A DNA stretch of 64,000 bases, taken from the NCBI RefSeq assembly GCF_002834385.1, contig NZ_PITQ01000002.1:620001-684000 (forward strand). Direction: 5' to 3'. Positions 13,146 to 54,710 of the stretch are shown one piece after another; positions within the stretch are counted from its first letter, which is position 1; each line of letters begins with the position of its first letter. The notes under the pieces were generated by a model. The model was not told the origin of the DNA. It was given only the letters and a program-made list of their open reading frames with translations, and searched no databases. The DNA is from Rahnella sp. AA (lineage in GTDB: Bacteria > Pseudomonadota > Gammaproteobacteria > Enterobacterales > Enterobacteriaceae). The position numbers were made by a program, and so were the translations under genes.

Positions 13146-14279
13146 ATGGCAGGGGAAAATGTGATGCTTTCCCATCATGGCATTAACCGCCGTGATTTTA
13201 TGAAGCTTTGTGCCGCACTTGCCGCGTCAATGGGGCTGACAAACACAGCCGCCGCAGATATAGCAAAAGCGATTGTTTCGCCACAACGTCCCCCCGTGTT
13301 GTGGATAGGCGCGCAGGAATGCACGGGTTGTACCGAATCATTGTTAAGAGCAACGCACCCGACAATTGAGAATCTGTTGCTCGATACCATTTCACTTGAG
13401 TATCACGAAGTCCTGTCAGCGGCATTTGGCCATCAGGCAGAAGAAAACAAACGCAGGGCGATAGAACAGTACAAAGGGAAGTATGTTCTGGTTGTCGATG
13501 GTTCCATTCCCGTCAAAGACGGTGGCGTGTATTGCATGGTCGCGGGTAAGCCCATTGTCGAGCACATCCGTGAAGTGGCGGAACACGCCGCGGTCATCAT
13601 TGCTATCGGCTCCTGTTCCTCGTGGGGCGGCGTCGCGGCTGCGGGCAGCAACCCCAGCGGAGCCGTCAGCCTGCAGGAAGCGCTACCGGGCAAATCCATT
13701 ATCAATATTCCCGGCTGCCCACCGAACCCGCACAATTTTCTTGCCACCGTCGCACATGTCATCACCTATCAGCGGCCACCGGCGCTGGATAAATCAGGGC
13801 GCCCCACCTTTGCCTATGGCCGTCTGATCCACGAAAACTGCGAACGACGTCCGCATTTCGATGCAGGCCGTTTTGCCAAAGAATTTGGCGATGAAGGACA
13901 TCGTCAGGGATGGTGCCTCTATCATCTCGGGTGTAAAGGGCCGGAAACGTATGGCAATTGCCCGACATTGCAGTTCTGCGATATCGGCGGGGGTATCTGG
14001 CCTGTCGGTATCGGACATCCCTGCTATGGCTGTAATGAACAAGGCGTTGGTTTTACGAAAGGTATCTCCCAGCTGGCCAATGTGGCGAACCCGACGCCAC
14101 GGACAGAAAAACCCGCAACAAATGCGCCTGAAGGTGGTCATGTTTCAGCCACGGCGGTCGGCCTGATTGGAGGGGTATTGGGCATCGTCGCCGGGGTCAG
14201 CCTGATGACCGTACGCGAGCTGGGGCGTCAGCAAAAACGGGAACGGCAGGACGCTGATAAAGCCTCCAGGGAGGACTAA
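13146..14279 (+). CDS. hybO: hydrogenase-2 small subunit HybO
   Basis: HybO carries the Fe-S clusters that pass electrons from the NiFe site. The 377-residue precursor starts with a Tat signal (INRRDFMKLCAALAA, residues about 14-28). Cluster ligands are visible in ECTGCTESLL, GSCSSWGG, NIPGCPPNP, HLGCKGPETYGNCP and HPCYGCNE. A C-terminal anchor helix lies near residues 337-358 (AVGLIGGVLGIVAGVSL). The start at 13146 aligns with the E. coli N terminus; AAGGAAA is about 9 bases upstream. It is the first gene of hybOABCDEF-hypB-hybG. Confidence 0.97.
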   Translation: MAGENVMLSHHGINRRDFMKLCAALAASMGLTNTAAADIAKAIVSPQRPPVLWIGAQECTGCTESLLRATHPTIENLLLDTISLEYHEVLSAAFGHQAEENKRRAIEQYKGKYVLVVDGSIPVKDGGVYCMVAGKPIVEHIREVAEHAAVIIAIGSCSSWGGVAAAGSNPSGAVSLQEALPGKSIINIPGCPPNPHNFLATVAHVITYQRPPALDKSGRPTFAYGRLIHENCERRPHFDAGRFAKEFGDEGHRQGWCLYHLGCKGPETYGNCPTLQFCDIGGGIWPVGIGHPCYGCNEQGVGFTKGISQLANVANPTPRTEKPATNAPEGGHVSATAVGLIGGVLGIVAGVSLMTVRELGRQQKRERQDADKASRED

Positions 14280-14282
14280 GCC

Positions 14283-15314
14283 GTGAACAGACGCAACTTC
14301 TTTAAACTCACCTGCGCTGGCGCAGTGTTAGCGGGCGCGCCGCTGGCCGGACGTGCAGCGGCCACCAATAAACCGCCGATCCCCGGTGCGCTGGGCATGC
14401 TCTACGATTCAACGCTCTGCGTCGGCTGTCAGGCATGCGTGTCCAAATGCCAGCAGGTCAACGAACTGGCCTATAACCCGGAAAGCCAGATCTACGCGGG
14501 CGGCAGCGCCACCTGGTCTAACAACGATAAGCTCAGCCCTTACACCAATAACATTATTCAGGTCTGGAGCTCCGGCGACGGTCAGAACAAGGACCAGCTC
14601 GATAACGGTTATGCCTATATCAAAAAACAGTGCATGCACTGTGTGGATCCTAACTGTGTCACGGTCTGCCCGGTCAGCGCACTGAAAAAAGATGCAAAAA
14701 CCGGCGTAGTGCATTACGACGCCAGCATCTGTACCGGGTGTCGTTATTGTATGGTGGCGTGCCCCTTTGACGTGCCTAAATTCGATTATGAAAACCCGTT
14801 AGGCAGGATCCACAAATGCGAACTGTGCAATCAGAAAGGGTTGGAACGGCTGGATAAAGGCGGATTACCCGGATGCGTGGAGGTTTGCCCCACCGGCGCA
14901 GTGATTTTCGGCACACGGGAAAATCTGCTCAGCGAGGCAAAACGTCGCCTCGCCTTAAAATCGGGCAGTGACTATCACTATCCACGCCAGACACTGGATG
15001 CTGACGATACCTATCTGCATGCAGTGCCCCATTACGATAACTACGTATACGGTGAAAAAGAAGGCGGCGGTACGCAGGTTCTGGTTCTGGCGGGTGTTCC
15101 GTACCAAAAACTGATGCTACCAAAACTCGATGAGCTGTCGACTGGCGAACGCTCTGAACACGTTCAGCACACCATTTATAAAGGGATGATATTGCCGCTG
15201 GCGGTATTAGCCGGGCTGTCGGTGCTGGTGTATCGCAATACCCGTAACGACCGCAAAACCGATGAAAAGCATGACGACGACTCACATAAGGAGAACGACC
15301 ATGACGACGCATAA
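14283..15314 (+). CDS. hybA: hydrogenase-2 ferredoxin-like subunit HybA
   Basis: HybA relays electrons between HybO and the quinone-facing HybB. The 343-residue protein starts with GTG and a Tat-type signal ([12 protein letters not shown]). It carries four [4Fe-4S] cysteine clusters: [38 protein letters not shown], and CELCNQKG with CVEVCP. A C-terminal helix ([17 protein letters not shown]) anchors it in the membrane. It begins 3 bp after the hybO stop. Confidence 0.97.
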
Positions 15315-16500
15315 AGCCAGCCCGCTTGGCGGGCGTCTGGTCAGCTGGCCAGTTATGTTGCTGGCTCCGCTGGTTGTCATCTGCGCGGTGCTGATTTTGC
15401 GCCGTCTGCTCTTTGGCATCGGCTCGGTCGCCGCCTTAAACGGCGGATACCCGTGGGGATTATGGATTGCGTTTGATTTGCTGGTCGGCACCGGCTTTGC
15501 CTGCGGCGGCTGGGCACTGGCCTGGGCCGTCTACGTTTTCAATCGTGGCGAATACCACCCGCTGGTCAGACCGGCATTGCTGGCAAGCCTGTTCGGCTAC
15601 TCGCTGGGTGGTTTGTCTATCACCATTGATGTTGGCCGCTACTGGAATCTGCCCTACTTCTACATCCCTGGCTTTTTCAACACCTCGTCCGTGCTGTTCG
15701 AAACCGCCGTGTGTATGACCATCTACATCGGCGTCATGGCGCTGGAATTCGCGCCCGTCGTGCTCGAACGTTTCGGCTGGAAAGTGGCACTCAAACGTCT
15801 TAACAAGGTGATGTTCTTTATTATCGCGTTAGGCGCACTGCTCCCGACCATGCACCAGTCATCCATGGGATCACTGATGATTTCAGCGGGATTTAAAGTG
15901 CATCCGCTCTGGCAAAGTTATGAGCTTCTGCCGCTGCTTTCGGTACTGACCGCATTCATCATGGGGTTTTCGATTGTGATGTTCGAAGGCGCACTGGTGC
16001 AGGCGGGTTTACGGGGGCGCGGTGCCAATGAAAAACCGCTGTTTATCCGGCTAAGCCGCATTACCCAGGTGCTCCTGGTGCTGTTTCTCGCCTTACGTTT
16101 TGGCGAAATTATCTTGCACCACAAAACCCACTATCTGTTCGCCGGCGACAGGTTCTCCGTGATGTTCTGGTGCGAAGCGGCGCTGATGGCACTGCCACTT
16201 GTGCTGTTCCGGCTGCACGCCACACGCGAAGATTCGCGCTTTCTGTTCCTGGGTGGCCTCAGCATGCTATTTGGCGCAGCACTGTGGCGACTGAGTTACT
16301 CGATGCTGGCCTTTGATCCCGGCAACGGCTACCACTACTTCCCTGCCGCACAAGAAGTTCTGATTTCTATCGGTTTTGTCGCCATCGAAGTGTGTGCATA
16401 CATCTTATTAATACGGCTACTGCCGGTTCTTCCCGCGCCCGAAGGCGTTCATAAGAATTATCAGGCTGAGGTAAAGCATGAGCCAACGCATCACCATTGA
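15301..16500 (+). CDS. hybB: hydrogenase-2 integral membrane subunit HybB
   Basis: HybB is an NrfD/PsrC-type membrane protein, about 10 TM, that couples HybA to the quinone pool. The 399-residue product from the ATG at 15301 matches the E. coli start ([13 protein letters not shown]), has AAGGAG upstream and overlaps the hybA stop. A longer in-frame start at 15262 would lie inside hybA without a ribosome site. [23 protein letters not shown] and the long block [22 protein letters not shown] are highly conserved. The tail is His-rich. Confidence 0.96.
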
Positions 16501-18184
16501 TCCTATTACCCGTATTGAAGGGCACCTGCGCATTGATTGCGAAATTGAGCAAGGGAAAGTCACCAAAGCCTGGTCCTCCGGGACAATGTGGCGGGGAATG
16601 GAAGAAATCGTTAAAGGCCAGGATCCGCGTGACGCGTGGATGATCGTGCAACGTATCTGCGGCGTGTGTACCACCGTTCACGCAATTGCCTCAGTACGGG
16701 CTGTGGAAAATGCCCTTGGGGTCAATGTTCCGGTCAATGCGCAATACATCCGTAACCTGATTCTGGCGGCGCACAGCATTCAGGATCACATCGTTCATTT
16801 CTACCAGCTATCTGCACTGGACTGGGTCGATGTCACTTCAGCTCTGAAAGCCGATCCCAATAAAGCCGAAGCGCTTCTGAAAGGTTTATCGGACTGGCCG
16901 TCAAACAGCGCTGCCGAGTTCGCCAAAGTTCAGAAGAAGATCAAGGATCTGGTCGACAGCGGACAGTTGGGGATTTTCGCCAATGGCTACTGGGGCCACC
17001 CGGCGATGGCATTGCCCCCTGAAGTAAACCTGATTGCCGTCGCCCATTATCTCCAGGCGCTGGAGTGTCAGCGGGATGCCAGCCGGATTGTCGCCATTCT
17101 CGGTGGCAAATCCCCGCACATTCAGAATCTGGCGGTGGGCGGTGTGGCGAACCCCATTAATCTGGATTCACCGGGTGTACTGAACCTGGAGCGGCTGATG
17201 TATGTGAAATCCTTTATTGACCGCTTAGGCGATTTTATTGAGCAAGTCTACAAGGTCGATTGCGCGGTGATCGCAGCCCACTATCCGCAGTGGCTGACGC
17301 TGGGGAAAGGTGCCGATCATTACATGAGCGTGCCGGAGCTGCCGACCGATAATAAGGGGGGGAGTTTTATGCTGGCAGGCGGTTATCTGGAAAACGGTGA
17401 TTTTGCCCGCTACCGGCCTTTTACCAGCCATCAGGATGAATTCCTGATCAATGGCATTAAAGAAAGCGGTAAACATGCCTGGTATAAGGACGATGAACCG
17501 CTGGCGCCGTGGGAAGGCCTGACACGGCCGGAATACACCGGCTGGCAGGAAGACGGCAAATACTCCTGGGTAAAATCCCCCACATTTTACGGCAAAACGG
17601 TTGAAGTCGGGCCACTCGCCTGGATGCTATGCAGCCTGGCCGCAAAGCATGAAGACACCGAAACGCACTTTGCACAAGTCGTCGGACTGTATAAAACGCT
17701 GACGGGCAACACGCTGGAAACCCGCCAGATGCACTCGACGATGGGCCGCATTATTGGCCGAACCGTGCACTGCTGTGTGCTGAAAAACACGCTGGCGCAA
17801 CAATGGCAGGCGCTGGTGACCAACATCGGCACCGGGGATCATCAGACATTTATCAAACCCGACCTGTCACCCGATAAAGAATTCCGGGGCGTCGGTTTTG
17901 GTGAAATGCCGCGCGGCATGTTGTCACACTGGGTTGTTTTTAAAAACGGTAAAATCACGAACTACCAGGCGGTAGTGCCTTCTACCTGGACATCCAGCCC
18001 GCGTAACTTTGAAGGGCAAGCTGGCCCGTATGAACAATCTCTGGTCGGAACTCCGGTTGCCGATCCGAACAAACCACTGGAAGTCGTGCGAACCATTCAC
18101 TCCTTCGACCCCTGTATGTCTTGCGCAGTACATGTGGTAGACGCGGTGAACGGCAACGAAGTCACCCGGGTGAAGGTGTTGTAA
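16478..18184 (+). CDS. hybC: hydrogenase-2 large (NiFe) subunit HybC
   Basis: HybC carries the NiFe(CN)2CO active site. The protein has 568 residues, against 567 in E. coli. Nickel ligands are in RICGVC (C61, C64) and DPCMSCAVH (C546, C549). The ending HVVDAVNGNEVTRVKVL is the extension removed after His552 by the HybD endopeptidase. It overlaps hybB by 23 bp and has GAGG just upstream. It is exported by Tat together with HybO. Confidence 0.98.
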   Translation: MSQRITIDPITRIEGHLRIDCEIEQGKVTKAWSSGTMWRGMEEIVKGQDPRDAWMIVQRICGVCTTVHAIASVRAVENALGVNVPVNAQYIRNLILAAHSIQDHIVHFYQLSALDWVDVTSALKADPNKAEALLKGLSDWPSNSAAEFAKVQKKIKDLVDSGQLGIFANGYWGHPAMALPPEVNLIAVAHYLQALECQRDASRIVAILGGKSPHIQNLAVGGVANPINLDSPGVLNLERLMYVKSFIDRLGDFIEQVYKVDCAVIAAHYPQWLTLGKGADHYMSVPELPTDNKGGSFMLAGGYLENGDFARYRPFTSHQDEFLINGIKESGKHAWYKDDEPLAPWEGLTRPEYTGWQEDGKYSWVKSPTFYGKTVEVGPLAWMLCSLAAKHEDTETHFAQVVGLYKTLTGNTLETRQMHSTMGRIIGRTVHCCVLKNTLAQQWQALVTNIGTGDHQTFIKPDLSPDKEFRGVGFGEMPRGMLSHWVVFKNGKITNYQAVVPSTWTSSPRNFEGQAGPYEQSLVGTPVADPNKPLEVVRTIHSFDPCMSCAVHVVDAVNGNEVTRVKVL

Positions 18185-18201
18185 CCCCTGAAGGTATTGT
18201 C

Positions 18202-18753
18202 ATGAAGATATTAGTACTCGGGATAGGCAATTTGTTGCTTAGCGATGAAGCGGCAGGCGTGAGAATTATCGAAGCGCTGGGCCAGCATTATGCTTTTACA
18301 CCGGAAATAGACATCGTGGACGGAGGCACCGCCGGAATGGAACTGATTGAGACGATGGCCTGCCGCGATCACCTGATTGTCGCCGATGCGGTGCTGACCG
18401 GCAGCGCACCGGGCACCGTGACAAAATTATGCAATGAAGAAGTCCCGGCGCTTTTCACCCGAAAAATATCTCCGCATCAGCTGGGGCTGTCGGATGTGCT
18501 GATGGCCCTGCGACTGACGGACGAATTTCCCCGTCAGATTACGCTAATTGGCGTTGAACCCGGGTCGCTGGAACCCGCAATCGGCCTGAGCCCTCGCGTA
18601 CAGCAAGCTATTATCCCGGCGATGCAACAGATCCTTGCGGTGCTGCGCGAAAGCGGTATCGGGATCCGTGAAAAAACGGCTCAGGAGAAAGCAGACTATC
18701 CGACAACCTGCTTATCGTCGTCAGTGCCATTCACCACGGAAAGTCAGATATGA
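18202..18753 (+). CDS. hybD: hydrogenase-2 maturation endopeptidase HybD
   Basis: HybD removes the C-terminal peptide of HybC after nickel insertion. The 183-residue protein starts MKILVLGIGNLLLSDEAAGVR, with Glu16 and Asp62 (IVADAV) as expected nickel-sensing residues and a later SPHQLGLSDVL His. The ATG at 18202 is 18 bp after hybC; the longer open frame inside hybC is ignored. The C-terminal tail is about 20 residues longer than in E. coli (164 aa). Confidence 0.95.
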   Translation: MKILVLGIGNLLLSDEAAGVRIIEALGQHYAFTPEIDIVDGGTAGMELIETMACRDHLIVADAVLTGSAPGTVTKLCNEEVPALFTRKISPHQLGLSDVLMALRLTDEFPRQITLIGVEPGSLEPAIGLSPRVQQAIIPAMQQILAVLRESGIGIREKTAQEKADYPTTCLSSSVPFTTESQI

Positions 18754-19289
18754 GCGATATGTCATCGATTCTGCCGGCCGCATTACCCGACAACACCGGT
18801 TTGCCGGAACAAACCGGATTTGATACATCCCCTGCAACCTGGCTGGAAGCGGCATTCCGGCACGTCGCTGACCGGCAGATGAGCGGATTACCGTTTTATC
18901 GTGCTGCCATTCCTGTCAAAGCCTGCGGTTTTACCTTGTTTGAAAACCAGTGGATAGGTTGCCTGCTGACCCCCTGGACGCTGAGCCTGCTGATCCTGCC
19001 CGGACCGGATCAGGTGTGGTTATCCCGCGCTCCGGGCGATCGGCTGGCACTGCAACTGCCTTGCGGCAATGTCACTTTTTTACAGGGCGAAATCGGCAAT
19101 CAGCAGGGTGAGCGGCGCCAGTATCTTTCCTGCTCACTGATGTCACCGGTAGATAAAGCGTTAACACCGGAACAGGGCATTGCGCTGGCTGAGCAGAGTG
19201 TGCGCATGGCGCTGTCATTGCCGGTGGCAGATGCCGATGCTCCGCGCGATCCCAGCCGTCGTGCCCTGTTCCACCGCCGGGGAAAATAG
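18750..19289 (+). CDS. hybE: hydrogenase-2 assembly chaperone HybE
   Basis: HybE binds the Tat signal of HybO and prevents premature export. The 179-residue protein has the family core WLEAAFRHVADRQMSGLPFYR, FTLFENQWIGCLLTPW and LSCSLMSPV. It overlaps hybD by ATGA, so translation is coupled. The C-terminal ALFHRRGK fits the [NiFe]-hydrogenase assembly chaperone family (HybE/RubA-type). Confidence 0.93.
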   Translation: MSDMSSILPAALPDNTGLPEQTGFDTSPATWLEAAFRHVADRQMSGLPFYRAAIPVKACGFTLFENQWIGCLLTPWTLSLLILPGPDQVWLSRAPGDRLALQLPCGNVTFLQGEIGNQQGERRQYLSCSLMSPVDKALTPEQGIALAEQSVRMALSLPVADADAPRDPSRRALFHRRGK

Positions 19290-19290
19290 C

Positions 19291-19632
19291 ATGCATGAAA
19301 TTTCGATGTGCTACAGCGCGCTGGAACTGATTGAACAGCAGGCACGGCAACACGGTGCACGTAAAGTCACCGGCGTCTGGCTGGAAATTGGCGCGCTTTC
19401 CTGCATTGAGGAAAGCGCCTTACGTTTTTGCTTTGAATCGGTCTGCCAGCAAACGCTGGCACAGGGATGTGAGTTGCATATCTCTGTACGCGCGGCGATA
19501 GCCTGGTGCTGGGATTGCAGCACGGCTGTCGACGTGATACGCCACGGCGCAGGTTGCCCGCAATGCGGCAGTTATAATTTACGCATCGAGCAAGGCGACA
19601 GCCTGCAACTGAAACAATTAGCCACTGAGTGA
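19291..19632 (+). CDS. hybF: hydrogenase nickel insertion protein HybF (HypA family)
   Basis: HybF is the HypA paralogue that delivers nickel to hydrogenase-2. The 113-residue protein begins MHEISMC, with His2 the nickel ligand, and carries the zinc ribbon CWDC...CPQC (residues about 73-92). The start is 1 bp after the hybE stop region; a longer upstream open frame overlaps hybE and is not used. It works with HypB, encoded next. Confidence 0.95.
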
Positions 19633-19663
19633 ATGCGGTTCAATACCGACAGGAGTCGTCCTT

Positions 19664-20542
19664 ATGTGTACTACATGCGGCTGCGGAGCTGACGAGCACC
19701 AAATCGAAGGTGACAGCCACACACATGACCATCACCATCCCCACGACCACAGCCATCATCACGCCAGCGCACATCAGCACAGCGTGGTCATTCATCACCA
19801 CTACCATCACACCGGCGATGTGCATCACCATTATCATGCCGGTATACCGCAGCCTGACGAACAGGATCCTGCCGGACCCGTTGCGGGGCAACAACGTTTA
19901 CTGCAAATCGAAATGGATGTGCTGACTAAAAATAATGCCCTGGCGGCCCATAATCGTGAACACTTCACCGCACAACACATTCTGGCGCTGAATCTGGTCT
20001 CCAGCCCCGGTTCAGGCAAAACAACCTTACTGACCCAGACGCTGAACCGGATAAGCCTCAGCACCCCCTGCGCAGTGATTGAAGGTGACCAACAAACGAC
20101 AAACGACGCCGATCGGATCCGGGCAACCGGGGTGAACGCTATTCAGATAAATACCGGTAAAGGCTGCCATCTGGATGCACAAATGGTCCACGATGCCGCC
20201 CACCGGCTGGATCCGGCGGATAACAGCATCTTGTTTATCGAAAATGTCGGTAATCTTGTTTGTCCGGCAAGCTTTGATCTGGGTGAAAAACATAAAGTGG
20301 CCGTACTTTCCGTTACCGAAGGAGAAGATAAACCGCTTAAATACCCGCACATGTTCTCCGCCGCCTCTCTGATGATCATCAATAAAATCGACCTGCTGCC
20401 CTATCTCGATTTTGACCTGAACGCCTGTATCGCCTTTGCGCGGCGGGTTAATCCGGACATACAGGTGATCACGCTGTCGGCGCAAAGCGGCGAAGGGATG
20501 GATGAATGGCTTTCCTGGCTGGAGGCGCAGCAATGTGCATAG
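19664..20542 (+). CDS. hypB: hydrogenase nickel incorporation GTPase HypB, His-rich
   Basis: HypB is a GTPase that stores and delivers nickel. The 292-residue protein begins MCTTCGCG (high-affinity CxxCGC nickel site), then has a His-rich segment with more than 20 histidines between residues about 11 and 65. The G domain follows: Walker [11 protein letters not shown] (about 109-118), [15 protein letters not shown] and NKIDLL. The His-rich stretch is longer than in E. coli HypB, which suggests extra Ni storage. It sits between hybF and hybG, unlike E. coli, where hypB is in hypABCDE. Confidence 0.95.
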
Positions 20543-20796
20543 GCATTCCCGGAAAGGTGGTGTCAGTTGGCGAGGACATTCATCAGCCGGCAATAGTCGA
20601 CATCAGTGGTTTGCGGCGTGAAGTCAACATCGCGCTGGTCTGCGAAGGCGAAACCCTCGATTTAATCGGCCGCTGGGTTCTCGTGCACGTCGGTTTTGCC
20701 ATGAGCCTGCTTGATGAAGAAGAAGCACAGGATACGCTGGCCGCGCTGCAATCCATGCAACTGGTGGAACAGGAACTGGATGACATGCGGAGCTGA
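20533..20796 (+). CDS. hybG: hydrogenase maturation chaperone HybG (HypC family)
   Basis: HybG is the HypC-type chaperone for HybC that carries the Fe(CN)2CO group from HypD. The 87-residue protein starts MCIGIPGKV, with Cys2 essential, and shows [12 protein letters not shown] and [10 protein letters not shown]. Its ATG overlaps the hypB stop by 10 bp. It ends the operon. A GC hairpin (CCCCGT...ACGGGG, about 20818-20837) follows without a clear T run. Confidence 0.95.
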
Positions 20797-48467: not shown

Positions 48468-49331
48468 TTATGCCTGACCGGATGAAGGAATAATGTTACG
48501 CAGCCAGCTTCCCCACTTGCGCTGATAAAACGGCTGGGTATGGCTGATCAAATAATGGCTGATGCCACGCTCTTTTTCGGAAACGATACAGAAATCCACC
48601 GGGCGATCGTCCGGGGACGTTTCACTTGCCACATTTCCCGCTTCGCGGATCAGCGCGTCGATCTCCTGCTCATCACCGTCGGCTTCAACACCAATCAACA
48701 GGTTTGGCTGGTCATCAACCGCTTTATCGTGGATCAGCGCCATAAAGGCACGACGTACCGGCTTTTTCTGGGTAAACAGCGTGGTTAATGCATCAATCAT
48801 GGCTGAAGGATATTCTTCTGGCTGACCAATCAGTAACTGACTTTCTTTGTCCAGCACCAGCTCTGACGGCGCATGCAATCCGCCGTTGCTCAGCAGCAGC
48901 GTGACTTCGTTTGGCGTGAATTCCTTTCCGTATTCAGACTTAGGATTCAGAAACAGCTCATCGCCCTGCGTCATTTCGAACAGCACGCGGGCAGGCAACG
49001 CAACAAACGCCTGCTCGTCCGGGCTTTCGCCCGCGCTGGCTTTTTCCAACACGTCGACTGAAGAGAAGAAAGGAATGATCGAGCTGCCGTCCTGTTTTTC
49101 CCAGTGCAGAATATTGAGTTCGCTACCGGCGGTAATCGCCACACTGCCCTGTTTTTCCGCGTCATCCTGACCTGCATCACCCAGCACGAAAACGGTGGAA
49201 TCCAGCAAGGTCTGGTAAAAAGCCGGGCGCCAGGCAGGCGCGGTGACGGACAGACGAAGCAAGCGCTCCAGCTCGTTTTCCCCGTTTACCGCGGCGGCAC
49301 CCGCAGGAAGATGATCGTGTGGGACACTCAT
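48468..49331 (-). CDS. sseB: SseB family protein (serine-sensitivity enhancer)
   Basis: The 287-residue protein has two SseB-type domains: the N-terminal one at about 18-135 (LERLLRLSVTAPAWRPAFYQTLLDS, FVALPARVLFEMT) and the C-terminal SseB_C from about 160. E. coli SseB is 258 residues; the N terminus here is longer. It is next to pepB as in E. coli. Its molecular role is not established. Confidence 0.92.
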   Translation of the reverse strand: MSVPHDHLPAGAAAVNGENELERLLRLSVTAPAWRPAFYQTLLDSTVFVLGDAGQDDAEKQGSVAITAGSELNILHWEKQDGSSIIPFFSSVDVLEKASAGESPDEQAFVALPARVLFEMTQGDELFLNPKSEYGKEFTPNEVTLLLSNGGLHAPSELVLDKESQLLIGQPEEYPSAMIDALTTLFTQKKPVRRAFMALIHDKAVDDQPNLLIGVEADGDEQEIDALIREAGNVASETSPDDRPVDFCIVSEKERGISHYLISHTQPFYQRKWGSWLRNIIPSSGQA

Positions 49332-49356
49332 AATTCTGACTCCGGTAATGGTATAA

Positions 49357-49382
49357 AACGGGGCGCTATTCTGCGCCCCGTT
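49357..49382 (-). terminator. terminator of pepB
   Basis: AACGGGGCGC-agaata-GCGCCCCGTT followed by TTATACC on the minus strand. Confidence 0.82.
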
Positions 49383-49407
49383 AATCTTACATCAACAAAT
49401 AATTATG

Positions 49408-50718
49408 TTAGTTAGACTTGGATAACAATAAGTTAGCGACGGTACGCACACCCAGACCGGTCGCACCTGCAGACCACTGGTCAGCAGCGCTTTTACGGTA
49501 GGTTGCCGAACAGTCGATGTGCAGCCAGCCTTTCTTATATTCAGTGACGAAATGAGACAGGAAAGCCGCCGCCGTGCTTGCGCCCGCAGTATGTGCAGGG
49601 CCGGCGATGTTGTTCAGTTCTGCGAAATTGGAAGGCAGATGCGAACGGTGGAACTCTTCCAGCGGCAGGCGCCAGAACGGTTCGTGTTCTGCTTTGGCAC
49701 TTTCCAGCAGCTCAGCTGCCAGCGCATCGTCAAAGCTGAACAGTGCGTGGTAATCATTGCCCAATGCGGTTTTCGCCGCACCGGTCAGCGTCGCCGCATC
49801 AATGATCAGCTCCGGATTCTGCGCAGAAGCGTCGATCAGGCCATCAGCCAGAACCAGGCGGCCTTCGGCGTCCGTGTTCATCACTTCGACGGTTTTGCCG
49901 TTGCGGTAGCGAATGATATCGCCCAGTTTCAGCGCGTTGCCGCTGACCATGTTGTCGGCGCAGCACAGATACAGTTTCACACGTTTGTTCAGGCCGTTAG
50001 CCGCCGCCAGCGCCAGCGCGCCGGTCAGGGTAGCCGCGCCGCCCATATCAGCTTTCATGGAATCCATGGAAGCGCTGGGTTTCAGGCTGTAGCCACCGGT
50101 GTCGAAAGTAATGCCTTTGCCGACCAGGCAGGCATAAACAGGCGCTTCAGCGTCGCCTGACGGGTTGTAATCAAGCGCCAGCAGAACCGGCGGACGGTCA
50201 GAGCCACGGCCCACAGTATGGATGCCCATGTAACTTTGCTGACGCAGATCCTCACCTTTGGTGATGCGGTAGCTGACTTTTTCGTTACCGAATTCACACA
50301 TCAGATCGACAGCGCGGGTCGCCAGTTGCTCAGGGGACAGATCTTCCGCTGGCGTATTGATGGTGTTACGCACCCAGTCGATGATTTTCAGGCGCTGTTT
50401 CAGCGTGGTGGTGTCATCTTCGGATAACTCAGCCCATTCCACATTGCGCGTGCCTTTCGGGCCACGGAAACCCTGCCAGAATGCCCAGCTGTTTTCGAGA
50501 TCCCAGCCCTCGCCTGTCAGTTTGACATTTTTCACGCCCTGACCATCAATACGGCGTGCCGCACGGGAAATCGCCGTCAGCGCATCGCCCTCTTTCAGAT
50601 GGATAGTCATGCCTTCAGAACCGGTGCTCAGCGTGGCTTTTTCACCCCAGCGGGCATCTGCTGGCTGGGAAGAAAGGAACACGGACATGGCTTCATTGGT
50701 TGTTACTTCGGAACTCAT
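49408..50718 (-). CDS. pepB: aminopeptidase B PepB (M17 family)
   Basis: PepB is a two-metal leucyl-aminopeptidase-family enzyme. The 436-residue protein has [16 protein letters not shown] and the signature NTDAEGRL, with metal ligands Lys/Asp/Glu in these motifs. The start at 50718 has CAGGAGTG upstream. In E. coli it follows iscX at the end of the isc region. Here iscS lies only 112 bp upstream, because six isc genes are missing between them. Confidence 0.96.
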
Positions 50719-50830
50719 AACAGCACTCCTGATTTATTATTTTCAAAGACAAGTTTTATCTTCAATGAACGTCTTTTCTTCAATGACAGGTAAATCGCCC
50801 TTTAAATAGGGTGGCACTTCACGGTAAATG

Positions 50831-52006
50831 TCAGGCTTTCGCCGTATAAACCGGCGGCAGTTCACGCAGGCGGCGAACAGATTTCACCACCAGCGCAATC
50901 GCATAATCAATTTCTTCTTGCGTCGTCCAGCGCCCCAGGGAGAAACGCAAAGAGGCGTGAGCCAGCTCTTCATTGATACCCAGAGCACGCAAAACGTAAG
51001 AAGGCTCAAGGCTGGCGGACGTACAGGCTGATCCGGAGGAAACCGCCAGATCTTTGAGCGCCATAATCAGGGATTCCCCTTCAATACCGGCGAAACTGAC
51101 GTTCAGAATATTAGGCGCAGCATGTTTGGCAGAACCATTCATAAAGACGCCGTCCAGCACCTGAATGCCGTTCCACAGGCGATCGCGCAACGCTGCCAGA
51201 CGTTCAACTTCGTCGGTCATTTCCTCTTTAGCGATGCGATAAGCTTCGCCCATACCGACAATCTGATGCACCGGCAACGTCCCGGAACGCATGCCGCGCT
51301 CATGGCCGCCACCGTGGATTTGCGCTTCGATGCGGACTTTCGGTTTACGACGCACATACAGCGCGCCGATGCCCTTTGGGCCATAAATCTTATGTGCGGA
51401 AAATGACATTAAATCGACCGGCAACTCGCTGAGATCAATCGCGATTTTCCCCACGCTCTGGGTCGCATCCACATGGAACAACACGTCACGACTGCGGCAC
51501 AGTTCGCCAATCGTCGCGATATCCTGCACCACGCCGATTTCGTTATTCACCTGCATGATGGAGACCAGGATCGTGTCCGGACGCATAGCCGCTTCAATGG
51601 CCACCGGCGTGATAAAACCGTCAGCCTGTGGCGCCAGATACGTAACTTCAAAACCTTCGCTTTCCAGCTGATGGCAGGTATCAAGCACCGCTTTATGCTC
51701 AGTCTGGCTGGTAATAATGTGTTTGCCTTTCCCGCGCTGCGCGTGCGCCGCACCTTTGATCGCCAGATTATCGGACTCCGTCGCCCCGGAGGTGAATACA
51801 ATTTCACGCGGATCGGCATTAATCAGTTCGGCAATCTGGTTGCGCGCCACATCCACCGCCTCCTCGGCCTGCCAGCCAAAACGGTGAGACCGTGAAGCCG
51901 GATTACCGAAAGTACCGTCCAGTGTCAGACACTGCATCATTTTCTCGGCGACGCGCGGATCAACCGGCGTAGTGGCAGAGTAATCGAGATAAATAGGTAA
52001 TTTCAT
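50831..52006 (-). CDS. iscS: cysteine desulfurase IscS with altered, shortened C terminus
   Basis: IscS mobilises sulfur from cysteine for Fe-S clusters and tRNA thiolation. The 391-residue protein has the PLP lysine in [21 protein letters not shown] and the catalytic cysteine loop [21 protein letters not shown], all intact. The start at 52006 ([14 protein letters not shown]) is the family start; a TTG three codons earlier is also open. After KSVRRLREL the protein ends PPVYTAKA, where the E. coli protein continues with about 20 residues that contact IscU. The gene downstream is pepB, not iscU. Retention without IscU fits a role in TusA/ThiI thiolation. This is inference. Confidence 0.95.
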
Positions 52007-52150
52007 GGCAGGCAAGCTCCGGACTGCGCGTTCTGTTTCGAACGAAAGAATGAAAAAAACGACACCCAGTTTAAAACGGCTTCACGAATTCTTAAAAGGG
52101 AAATGATGTTTTACGGGCACTAAACGGTAAGTATTGGCGTCTGAAAATGC

Positions 52151-52182
52151 AAAAACCCGCGGAAATGTGAATTCCCACGGGC
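52151..52182 (-). terminator. Rho-independent terminator between iscR and iscS
   Basis: On the minus strand CCCGTGGGAA-ttcaca-TTTCCGCGGG is followed by TTTTTGC. It lies about 150 bp after the iscR stop and upstream of iscS, so it should separate their transcription. In E. coli the two genes are co-transcribed. The rest of 52016-52150 must hold any iscS promoter; no IscR box is seen there. Confidence 0.75.
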
Positions 52183-52209
52183 TTCTTAAAACATAAATTC
52201 TCAGCATTC

Positions 52210-52330
52210 CCTAAATCATTCGTGTTGCATCAAGGCGGCAACGGAGCAAATCCCCGGGAGCATACAGTAGTATGTGACCGGGGGTTTGCGACGGCAGCCA
52301 ACGCCGGGGCAGCGCGAAGGATGACGGGGA
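52210..52330. repeat. ERIC element between iscR and iscS
   Basis: AATCCCCGGGAGCATAC-agta-GTATGTGACCGGGGGTTTGCG matches the ERIC core (AATCCCCAGGAGCTTAC...GTAAGTGACTGGGG), with CAAGGCGGCAACG to the left and GCAGCCAACGCC and GATGACGGGGATTA to the right. It abuts the iscR stop codon. Confidence 0.85.
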
Positions 52331-52825
52331 TTAGGCTCTGAGATTTACGTTGATCGTCTCCATCTGACGGCCATTCGGCTGACGACGGATTTCACCGTTC
52401 TGACGGTCGGCCACTTCCAGGATTTCCTGGTTGTTGACCAGCTCTGCCAATGTGATGTTGTTGAGGAAACCGCTGATGCGCTCGCTCAGATCACGCCACA
52501 ACGTGTGCGTCAGGCAACGTTCGCCATTCTGGCAGCCTTCTTTACCCTGACAACGGGTGGCATCGACAGATTCGTCAACGGCAGTAATTACCGCGCCAAC
52601 CGCGATATCACCGGAATCTTTGCCCAGCAGATAACCACCGCCCGGACCACGAACACTGGCAACCAAACCATTTTTACGTAAACGCGAGAACAACTGCTCC
52701 AGATAAGAAAGAGAAATACCCTGACGCTCAGAAATATCAGCCAGTGGTACTGGTCCTTCCTGTGAATGCAGTGCAACGTCGAGCATAGCGGTCACGGCAT
52801 AACGGCCTTTGGATGTCAGTCTCAT
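52331..52825 (-). CDS. iscR: Fe-S cluster-responsive regulator IscR
   Basis: IscR is an Rrf2-family regulator whose [2Fe-2S] form represses the isc promoter. The 164-residue protein has an N-terminal winged helix ([39 protein letters not shown]) and cluster ligands C-x5-C-x5-C plus His in [20 protein letters not shown]. All ligands are kept, although the usual cluster donor genes are missing downstream. Two IscR boxes precede it. Confidence 0.97.
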
Positions 52826-52892
52826 AGCATGGTTACCTGTTTTAAATGACTTTTAAAAACGCACGGATGCGGTTGATGCAAATGAGTCTGAC

Positions 52893-52942
52893 ATTCCCGA
52901 GTAAATCAGTCAACTATTTAACCGAGTAATTTACTCAAGTAT
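52893..52942 (-). promoter_or_regulatory. two tandem IscR type 1 sites and iscR promoter
   Basis: Two 25-bp dyads at 52893-52917 and 52918-52942 fit the type 1 IscR motif (ATA-N3-GACT/GAGT...AGTC/ACTC-N3-TAT). A -35-like TTGACT lies in the first dyad (minus strand), with GTCAGACT downstream. Autoregulation of iscR is therefore likely preserved. Confidence 0.8.
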
Positions 52943-53042
52943 TACACTGAGGAAAAACAGGCGTTTTTGCCTCCACGAATGAAGGCATTACAACACAATG
53001 ATTCACATAACAAAAAACGTCTTAATAACCCCCAAAACAGGC

Positions 53043-53780
53043 TTATTCTTTGTTGTTATGAGTCTTTTCAATCGACGTCAGAATGCCGCGAAGGATGTTC
53101 AATTCCTGAGATTCAGGTCGCGCACGGGTAAACAGACGGCGTAATTTACTCATTACCTGACCCGGATGTGCCTGACGAATGAAGCCAGTTTCCAGCAGCG
53201 TCTGTTCCAGATGCTGGTAAAAACGTTCCAGATCGTCGACCAGCGGATACGGCGATTCTTCGTATTCCACCTGCGGTGTGGCAGCTTCCAGCAAAGCCAG
53301 ATGTGCAACGCGAACTTCATACGCAATAATCTGCACGGCCATCGCCAGATTCAGCGAGCTGTATTCGGGGTTCGCCGGAATGCAGACATGATAGTTACAT
53401 TTTTGCAGTTCTTCGTTGGTCAGCCCGACGCGTTCGCGCCCGAAGACCAGCGCAACCGGCGCAGTTTGTGCCGCTTTGGCGCTGTGCTCACCGCATTCAC
53501 GCGGCTCAAGCATCGGCCACGGCAACGTACGGGAACGCGCACTGGTGCCGATCACCAGGCTACAACCAGAAAGGGCTTCATCCAGCGTATCAACGATGGT
53601 GGCGTTGCCGATCACATCGCTGGCACCGGCGGACAAAGAGATGGCCTGAGAATCAGGTTTCACCAGCGGATTCACCAGATAAAGGCTTGATAAGCCCATC
53701 GTTTTCATGGCACGGGCAGTAGAACCCATGTTACCGGTGTGGGACGTTTCAACTAAGACAATGCGGATATTAGGCAGCAT
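53043..53780 (-). CDS. trmJ: tRNA Cm32/Um32 methyltransferase TrmJ
   Basis: TrmJ is a SPOUT-class methyltransferase acting on tRNA position 32. The 245-residue protein begins [29 protein letters not shown] and has the knot motifs [21 protein letters not shown] and [13 protein letters not shown]. It lies upstream of iscR as in E. coli and is divergent from suhB. Confidence 0.97.
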
Positions 53781-53906
53781 ACAAACTCTGGGCAGACGGA
53801 AAATCATAACAGCCTAACACAACGGTAGTTAATTTTCAGAACCCCTGCTATACTGCGCGCCGTTTCCCGTATTCCCGTTCTTTAACATCCTAGTTGGAAG
53901 ATATCC

Positions 53907-54710
53907 ATGCATCCGATGCTCACCATCGCCGTGCGCGCTGCGCGCAAGGCCGGTAACCTGATTGCCAAACATTACGAAACGCCAGACTCTGTAGAAGCTA
54001 CTCAAAAAGGTACCAACGATTTTGTTACCAATGTAGATCGCGATGCAGAACACATGATTATCGATGTCATTCGCAAATCCTACCCAAAACACACCATCAT
54101 CAGTGAAGAGTGTGGCGAGCTGGAAGGCGAAGACAAAGATGTACAATGGATTATCGACCCGCTGGATGGCACCACCAACTTCGTTAAACGCTTCCCACAT
54201 TTCGCTGTTTCTATCGCCGTGCGCATCAAAGGCCGCACTGAAGTCGCGGTAGTTTATGATCCAATGCGCAACGAACTGTTCACCGCAACCCGTGGTCAGG
54301 GCGCACAGCTGAACGGTTACCGTCTGCGCGGCACTAACGCGAAAGATCTCGACGGCACCATTCTGGCGACCGGTTTCCCGTTCAAAGCCAAACAACACGC
54401 AAAAAGCTACATGAACGTCGTGGGCAAACTGTTCACCGAATGTGCAGATTTTCGTCGCACCGGTTCTGCTGCGCTGGATCTGGCTTACGTCGCTGCTGGC
54501 CGCGTTGACGGCTTCTTCGAAATCGCCCTGAAGCCCTGGGATTTCGCCGGTGGCGAACTGCTGGTTCGTGAATCAGGCGGCGTTGTGACTGACTTCGTTG
54601 GCGGCCACAACCATTTCTCTTCCGGTAACATCGTTGCCGGTAATCCACGCGTCGTTAAAGGTATTCTGATGACCATGCGTGATGAACTGAGCGAAGCGCT
54701 GAAGCGTTAA
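53907..54710 (+). CDS. suhB: inositol-1-monophosphatase SuhB
   Basis: SuhB is an inositol monophosphatase-fold enzyme that in E. coli also acts with Nus factors in rRNA antitermination. The 267-residue protein has the metal-site motifs EECGE, DPLDGTTNF and WDFAGGELLVRESGG. It is divergent from trmJ with 126 bp between starts. Confidence 0.97.
   Translation: MHPMLTIAVRAARKAGNLIAKHYETPDSVEATQKGTNDFVTNVDRDAEHMIIDVIRKSYPKHTIISEECGELEGEDKDVQWIIDPLDGTTNFVKRFPHFAVSIAVRIKGRTEVAVVYDPMRNELFTATRGQGAQLNGYRLRGTNAKDLDGTILATGFPFKAKQHAKSYMNVVGKLFTECADFRRTGSAALDLAYVAAGRVDGFFEIALKPWDFAGGELLVRESGGVVTDFVGGHNHFSSGNIVAGNPRVVKGILMTMRDELSEALKR

Follow-up and report, generated by a model that had tools for sequence, protein, structure and literature searches.

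How does a full-size relative of Escherichia coli make its iron-sulfur (Fe-S) clusters when the isc operon has been reduced to its first two genes? The question is raised by a stretch of 64,000 nucleotides from Rahnella sp. AA (contig NZ_PITQ01000002.1, positions 620,001 to 684,000; hereafter the window), in which iscR and iscS are followed directly by pepB. In E. coli, the interval between iscS and pepB is filled by iscU, iscA, hscB, hscA, fdx and iscX. The answer we favour, and consider very probable, is that ISC has been lost, that SUF makes the clusters, that IscS serves thiolation and that IscR senses the Fe-S status of the cell. According to this proposal, the ancestor of the genus would have lost the whole ISC module (iscU, iscA, hscBA, fdx, iscX and the unlinked cyaY), leaving SUF (sufABCDSE), together with SufA, ErpA and NfuA as carriers, as the only general Fe-S machinery. 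IscS would have been kept as the persulfide donor to TusA and ThiI, that is, for tRNA thiolation and, via TusA, for the molybdenum cofactor; on account of this donation its TusA surface and active-site loop would have been retained, while the surfaces for IscU and for frataxin, IscX and ferredoxin, which overlap a reported acyl carrier protein (ACP) contact, would have drifted. IscR would have been kept as an Fe-S gauge, with its ligands and the Type-1 operator before iscRS. A falling cluster supply would then lead to more IscR, the activator of suf in E. coli.

The reduced operon itself is well documented. On the minus strand the order is trmJ-iscR-iscS-pepB-sseB with suhB diverging, and tblastn of E. 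coli proteins bore out the statement of a preliminary description of this DNA that the flanks are in normal order. The iscS stop (50831) and the pepB start (50718) are separated by 112 bp. The same order, minus the six isc genes, was found by tblastn in 14/14 genomes of the genus (the window and 13 genus-mates), with a junction of 85-130 bp as measured to the aligned PepB start. A permissive search (E up to 10) of the genus junctions revealed no convincing remnant of the six genes. The preliminary description had itself named an assembly gap at 50719-50830 as a possible cause. Nothing was found in favour of such a gap or misassembly: there is no N in 49000-54500 of the window, and because the same junction recurs in 14 separate assemblies, including ones of only 2 and 4 contigs, this explanation was rejected as having practically no chance of being right.

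IscR, IscS, TrmJ, PepB and SseB all exceed their NCBIfam cut-offs, and IscS passes the IscS-family equivalog test while retaining its catalytic Cys328, as described earlier, and His104. The iscS start is the ATG at 52006, and the TTG at 52015 given in a mechanical open reading frame list is probably not the true one. The spacer between iscR and iscS contains an intergenic dispersed repeat of ~120 bp (window 52209-52330), for which 11 more matches of 71-90% identity were obtained in 1.65 Mb of stretches of the genus-mate G012 plus the window. Within the genus the spacer measures ~210, 277 or 325 bp, which suggests presence or absence of the repeat element. Outside the genus, the iscS-pepB stretch of genome G017 (L177:8723-8917) gives a weak match to IscX residues 7-65 (31%, E 0.033, with an internal stop), perhaps the last remnant of iscX.

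Family-model searches were extended to 59 whole genomes, comprising the 14 of the genus (G000-G013) and others, with E. coli among the positive controls. The window's genome, G000, is a 5.85 Mb assembly of 34 contigs and 99.99% completeness. An IscU-type protein (PF01592/NifU_N) was found in none of the 14 genus genomes. The NifU_N domain occurs in two of them, in a 293-aa frame of G000 and a 313-aa frame of G012, both NifU-like and longer than IscU. HscB (PF07743), the isc ferredoxin (TIGR02007), IscX (PF04384) and the frataxin CyaY (PF01491) were likewise found in 0/14, and no protein in the 14 genomes exceeds the cut-off for HscA (TIGR01991), other Hsp70s falling below it. A-type domains number three per genus genome against four in seven relatives having both IscU and SUF. 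By place or length, the three are assigned to ErpA, to the SufA of the suf operon and to a 194-aa NfuA, and the family-model search of the genus genomes found no fourth carrier. A second Hsp70, with a frame of ~570-600 aa below the HscA cut-off, was seen at G000:C1:159382-160776 and at like places in at least nine genus-mates, and is perhaps HscC-like.

These searches decide on relocation of the isc genes elsewhere in the chromosome or to a plasmid, the condition under which the preliminary description would have spoken of relocation in place of loss. Apart from NifU in 2/14 genomes nothing speaks for it. With positive controls in place and assemblies of 99-100% estimated completeness, no iscU, hscBA or fdx was found elsewhere in the 14 genomes, and relocation was rejected with a residual chance that is close to negligible. 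The frataxin gene cyaY is unlinked to isc in E. coli, and in G012 (4 contigs) the order cyaA-lptM-dapF-yigA-xerC is intact without it. The occurrence of cyaY only together with iscU is already known, as a published survey reports iscU in every cyaY-containing genome among 2742 (PMC4440780).

What then makes the clusters? SufB and SufD are encoded in 14/14 genus genomes, and the five genus loci that were read (G000, G003, G010, G011 and G012) each carry an intact sufABCDSE operon, flanked by menI and ldtE and with its genes ordered as in E. coli. Moreover, 21 of the 59 genomes lack an IscU-type protein; 19 of these are devoid of NifU_N, and the other two are G000 and G012. Each of the 21 encodes SufBD, and CyaY is missing from every one. 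The remaining 38 include G036, whose NifU-like frame is 306 aa long, and G051, which gives a weak NifU_N match; CyaY is present in 32 of the 38 and SufBD in eight. From this gene content, SUF would be the general Fe-S machinery left in the genus, through which clusters would have to flow. The sufB-sufC gap, at ~12-65 bp in E. coli and five other genomes, is ~126-127 bp in the five genus loci, where an internal promoter or RNA element is possible.

The preliminary description had called for another scaffold, either Suf, Nif or relocated genes, and only the first of these stood. Replacement of ISC by NIF (NifU with NifS) could be argued from the 293-aa NifU of G000, which lies in a nif stretch resembling Rahnella plasmids (84%), and from the 313-aa NifU of G012. 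However, 12/14 genus genomes show the same reduction to iscRS without NifU_N; the idea was therefore rejected as very improbable. NifU is patchy in the genus (2/14), and its stretch in G000 (contig C28) shows 84% identity, across 76% of its length, to plasmid-borne nif regions of Rahnella aceris and R. aquatilis.

Changes are also seen in IscS itself. The alignment of window IscS with E. coli IscS stops at residue 387/404. Among the matches listed, E. coli IscS aligns through its last residue, 404, in 85/85 iscU-bearing loci (71 named and 14 others), and its alignment ends at 383-402 in 25/25 iscU-less loci (9 named and 16 others). The iscU-bearing tails share a common ending after the last helix, with LSPLW or MSPLW and, near the end, W..H or W.HH. 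Among the iscU-less tails every lineage has its own ending: VYTAKA, VYTK or VYMK in the genus, RALM, RVLM, RALMKS or RELMKS in Pantoea, and longer unrelated ends in genome G033, Erwinia, Lonsdalea and G017. The E. coli-type IscU-docking segment 379-404 is thus not retained in the genus. In the crystal structure, the C-terminal helix 379-391 is contacted by IscU, and IscU binding is reported to be abolished or weakened when residues 374/376-404 are deleted (PMC2854127). Since residues past 393 are disordered in that structure (PMC2854127), the part played by the very end of the tail is less direct.

Erosion is also seen in the IscS body. Site classes were taken from the mutational data of PMC2854127 and compared in 113 distinct IscS rows, 86 of them IscU-bearing (33 nearer and 53 far) and 27 IscU-less. 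The IscU-less rows form nine lineages, namely the two reduced genomes G021 and G026 and seven others. The TusA sites W45, E49, D52, R55 and D65 are as in E. coli in all seven; of the reduced genomes, G021 has N65 and G026 has none changed. The active-site loop (104, 326, 327, 328 and 333) is identical in the genus and kept elsewhere, except for one change in the Erwinia group and one in G021. The CyaY/IscX sites R112, R223, R225, E227 and G234, which are invariant in the 33 nearer IscU-bearing rows, are down to identities of 0.40-0.80 across the nine IscU-less lineages. R112 in particular is R in 86/86 IscU-bearing rows and altered in 7/7 IscU-less lineages. The ThiI-affecting class is partly decayed, namely at F89 and R116; its sites R220, R237, M239 and R340 are kept in the seven lineages. 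The R112E/R116E exchange is reported to weaken ferredoxin binding by IscS and R220E/R223E/R225E to abolish it (PMC3750173). Out of 186 body sites conserved to at least 97% in the 86 IscU-bearing rows, eight changed in at least three of four independent losses (expected 0.34; 0/20,000 random draws reached eight) and five in 4/4 (random expectation 0.006). Two of the four loss groups are unions of several lineages, with G021 and G026 left out. The random-placement null assumes equally changeable sites, so that comparison by divergence is the stronger control.

It is this comparison that bears on a general drift of a less important enzyme as the cause of the erosion, with no partner specificity. 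The seven IscU-less lineages do have a lower IscS body identity to E. coli (0.76-0.87) than the 33 nearer IscU-bearing rows (mean 0.92). The TusA and CyaY/IscX classes are small (five sites each), and the per-lineage p for the CyaY/IscX class, a weaker test, ranges from 0.0008 (genus) to 0.3 (Lonsdalea). Nevertheless, the 53 far IscU-bearing rows are equally divergent (body mean 0.80) and yet hold the CyaY/IscX class at 0.99. The majority residues of Aeromonas, Pasteurellaceae, Vibrio and Pseudomonas, all IscU-bearing, change 8, 15, 15 and 23 of 251 near-invariant sites, respectively, and 0/7 of the interface sites 89, 112, 116, 223, 225, 227 and 234, of which the seven IscU-less lineages change 2-5. 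Single far IscU-bearing rows vary at R116 (3/53), E227 (2/53) and the TusA site D52 (9/53, always to E). Drift alone is therefore improbable, and the pattern suggests that IscS was eroded partner by partner, the surfaces of its Fe-S partners drifting and that of TusA staying.

The kept surface points to thiolation, as the preliminary description had supposed, and the support is indirect. TusA (79%, between zntA and yhhQ) and ThiI (78%, beside ispA-dxs) are encoded in G012. In E. coli, IscU and TusA are reported to compete for IscS, with IscU binding more tightly (Kd about 3 vs 8 µM) (PMC11302665); the loss of IscU would thus free IscS for TusA, to which sulfur may flow in the genus. The best reading of these data is that IscS serves thiolation. 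The alternative is that IscS was kept for Fe-S clusters, its persulfide going to SUF or straight to client proteins, and that thiolation comes second. It draws on M. tuberculosis, which has SUF and a lone iscS, and for which redox and bioenergetic phenotypes of an iscS mutant and action of IscS on WhiB3 in vitro are reported (PMC10848736), as well as on the fact that iscS still lies behind a promoter carrying an IscR Type-1 site. Both SufS and SufE are intact, however, and the decayed surfaces are those of the Fe-S partners while that of TusA is kept; we regard retention for clusters as unlikely, though less so than drift.

IscR keeps all its cluster ligands, in agreement with the earlier description, and lies over the equivalog cut-off. 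Scored against the Type-1 consensus from PMC6599224, the window iscR promoter reaches 23/25, compared with a mean of 15.8 and a highest value of 19 in 100 shuffles of the same promoter. Type-1 scores at iscR promoters were 20-24 in IscU-less and 22-24 in IscU-bearing loci. No Type-1 site was found before suf, where five genus promoters gave at best 16-17/25 (shuffles: mean 16.1, highest 20). By eye, a Fur-like box is kept in the aligned genus suf promoters.

Several points weigh against the proposal as a whole. IscS could still be a supplier to SUF. Nor is the surface for thiolation entirely intact, as the ThiI-affecting F89 and R116 have decayed in the genus, and the evidence for TusA and ThiI comes from one genus-mate, G012, not from the window's genome. 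In E. coli IscS, K101E/K105E and D346K/E347K leave ferredoxin binding intact (PMC3750173), and L386R or M389R alone did not stop IscU binding (PMC2854127); because such mutants still bound IscU or ferredoxin, not every eroded residue is a proven contact. Finally, Type-2 IscR sites in genus suf promoters score 17-18/24, not above shuffles (mean 16.0, highest 19), compared with 18-19 in three IscU-bearing relatives and 24 in E. coli. Control of suf by IscR in the genus would thus be an analogy with E. coli and is unproven.

The repeated ISC loss may further be regarded as a natural mutational scan, in which F89, Y90, K101, R112 and E120, then K95, E227 and D346, together with the tail, mark a surface used for Fe-S assembly only. 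This surface would include the frataxin/ferredoxin/IscX groove and the reported R112/R116 contact with ACP. We offer this reading tentatively and put its chances a little below even. ACP is essential, and because R112 decays nonetheless, the ACP-IscS contact seems to have mattered only for ISC. If this holds, the coupling of ACP to Fe-S assembly would be an ISC-only device that these bacteria abandoned. R112 and R116 have also been examined for ACP binding in a 2026 report (PMC13343975). The erosion map would indicate which IscS residues serve which partner, and its residue list is testable in E. coli K-12.

The Fe-S clients of the window include hydrogenase 2, HybOA being among those named in the preliminary description, with hybOABCDE present (Table 1). 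The maturation genes hypDE were not found within the window; a hypBCDE cluster is present in G012, but a search of 1.99 Mb of that genome yielded neither hybO nor hybC, and the observations of hydrogenase 2 and of hypDE thus come from separate genomes. In E. coli, the Fe(CN)2CO species carried by HypC is reported to be absent from iscS and iscU mutants but to persist in suf mutants, and the same paper leaves SUF-only organisms as an open case for the iron supply of [NiFe]-hydrogenase (PMC10847431). The genus provides an example of such an organism among the close relatives of E. coli. If the scan is read correctly, the active-site iron would arrive by a SUF-dependent or free-iron route, unlike in E. 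coli.

Table 1. Positions of the discussed features in the window.
Feature	Position	Strand	Remarks
hybOABCDE-hypA-hypB-hybG, hydrogenase 2 and maturation genes	13146..20796	+	Fe-S-rich clients
sseB, flank	48468..49331	-	tblastn; over NCBIfam cut-off
pepB, flank, normal order	49408..50718	-	tblastn; over NCBIfam cut-off
iscS-pepB junction, site of iscUA-hscBA-fdx-iscX in E. coli	50719..50830		no convincing remnant
iscS, cysteine desulfurase, 391 aa	50831..52006	-	TIGR02006 690.8 bits (cut-off 643.2); C-terminal tail shorter than and unlike E. coli
iscR, Fe-S responsive regulator	52331..52825	-	C92, C98, C104, H107; over NCBIfam cut-off
IscR Type-1 operator-like site, iscR promoter	52893..52917	-	23/25 positions
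trmJ, flank	53043..53807	-	tblastn; over NCBIfam cut-off
suhB, flank	53907..54710	+	tblastn

The loss is not confined to the genus. In a family sample of 391 genomes, 185 have both the NifU_N and SUF domains, 96 NifU_N only, 108 SUF only and two neither; as NifU counts as NifU_N, true SUF-only genomes are undercounted. By rounded size, 40 of the 108 are of at least 3 Mb (17 genera), 15 of 1-3 Mb and 53 below 1 Mb. Loss can also be simulated by a gap in a draft assembly; G385 (330 contigs), in whose genus-mates the NifU_N domain is found, may be such a case. In another genus, g160, G265 has a NifU_N match at 9.3e-53 and G172, G331 and G387 only near 1e-46; within this single genus, IscU may have disappeared and NifU remained. 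Among the matches listed, that is, 80 named loci picked by IscS similarity (near records may be left out), nine show iscR-iscS-pepB without iscU within 10 kb, judged at the locus only and not over the whole genome, and the other 71 have iscU. The nine belong to Pantoea agglomerans, P. anthophila, P. stewartii, two further Pantoea, Erwinia persicina, an Erwinia metagenome-assembled genome (MAG), an Enterobacterales MAG and Lonsdalea quercina.

A tree of TrmJ, SuhB, PepB and IscR, with IscS excluded, was built by a quick method for 54/58 loci having at least three of the four genes. It needs at least four independent changes, forced by its starred branches: in the genus, in an Erwinia/Pantoea group with G033, in Lonsdalea, and in G017 with a MAG (L098). 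The fork of the Erwinia/Pantoea group is unresolved and also holds three IscU-bearing rows, and may hide more than one loss. A tree by itself cannot separate loss from gain; the changes are read as losses, given that iscU is also found close to iscS in loci of Aeromonas, Vibrio and Pseudomonas. The repeated loss, like that of unlinked cyaY and the erosion of IscS, goes beyond the preliminary description. Full-size relatives of E. coli carrying SUF alone, several times independently, are close natural controls for the SUF iron supply to [NiFe]-hydrogenase maturation and for the purpose of frataxin and of the ACP-IscS contact.

Enterobacteria have been described as having both ISC for housekeeping and SUF for stress, and SUF-only life is described as common in bacteria (PMC11559095). 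Among open-access titles and abstract openings, supplements aside, we found no report of ISC loss in Rahnella, Pantoea or Erwinia, and earlier notice, for instance in the tables of a 2022 phylogenomic survey, is possible; where the available text of a paper on a Rahnella genome mentions IscA and IscU, it does so for its Variovorax strain alone (PMC10946135). Compared with E. coli K-12 (iscRSUA-hscBA-fdx-iscX and sufABCDSE), the genus shares the flanks, iscR, iscS, the iscR Type-1 site and the suf gene order, and differs in lacking iscU to iscX and cyaY and the E. coli-type IscS tail. Eight iscRS loci of Pantoea, Erwinia and Lonsdalea resemble it in having iscR-iscS-pepB, no iscU within 10 kb and an altered IscS tail, but represent two separate losses with other tail ends and iscS-pepB gaps of 126-792 bp. 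A known parallel is Mycobacterium tuberculosis, reported to use SUF as its main machinery with ISC reduced to iscS (PMC10848736). In the genus, by contrast, the enterobacterial flanks of iscR-iscS are retained, the loss has recurred in close relatives and CyaY has gone as well. SUF-only bacteria and a lone iscS beside SUF are thus a known kind; as far as our searches go, its setting in enterobacteria, the accompanying loss of frataxin within the genus and the partner-specific erosion of IscS are new.
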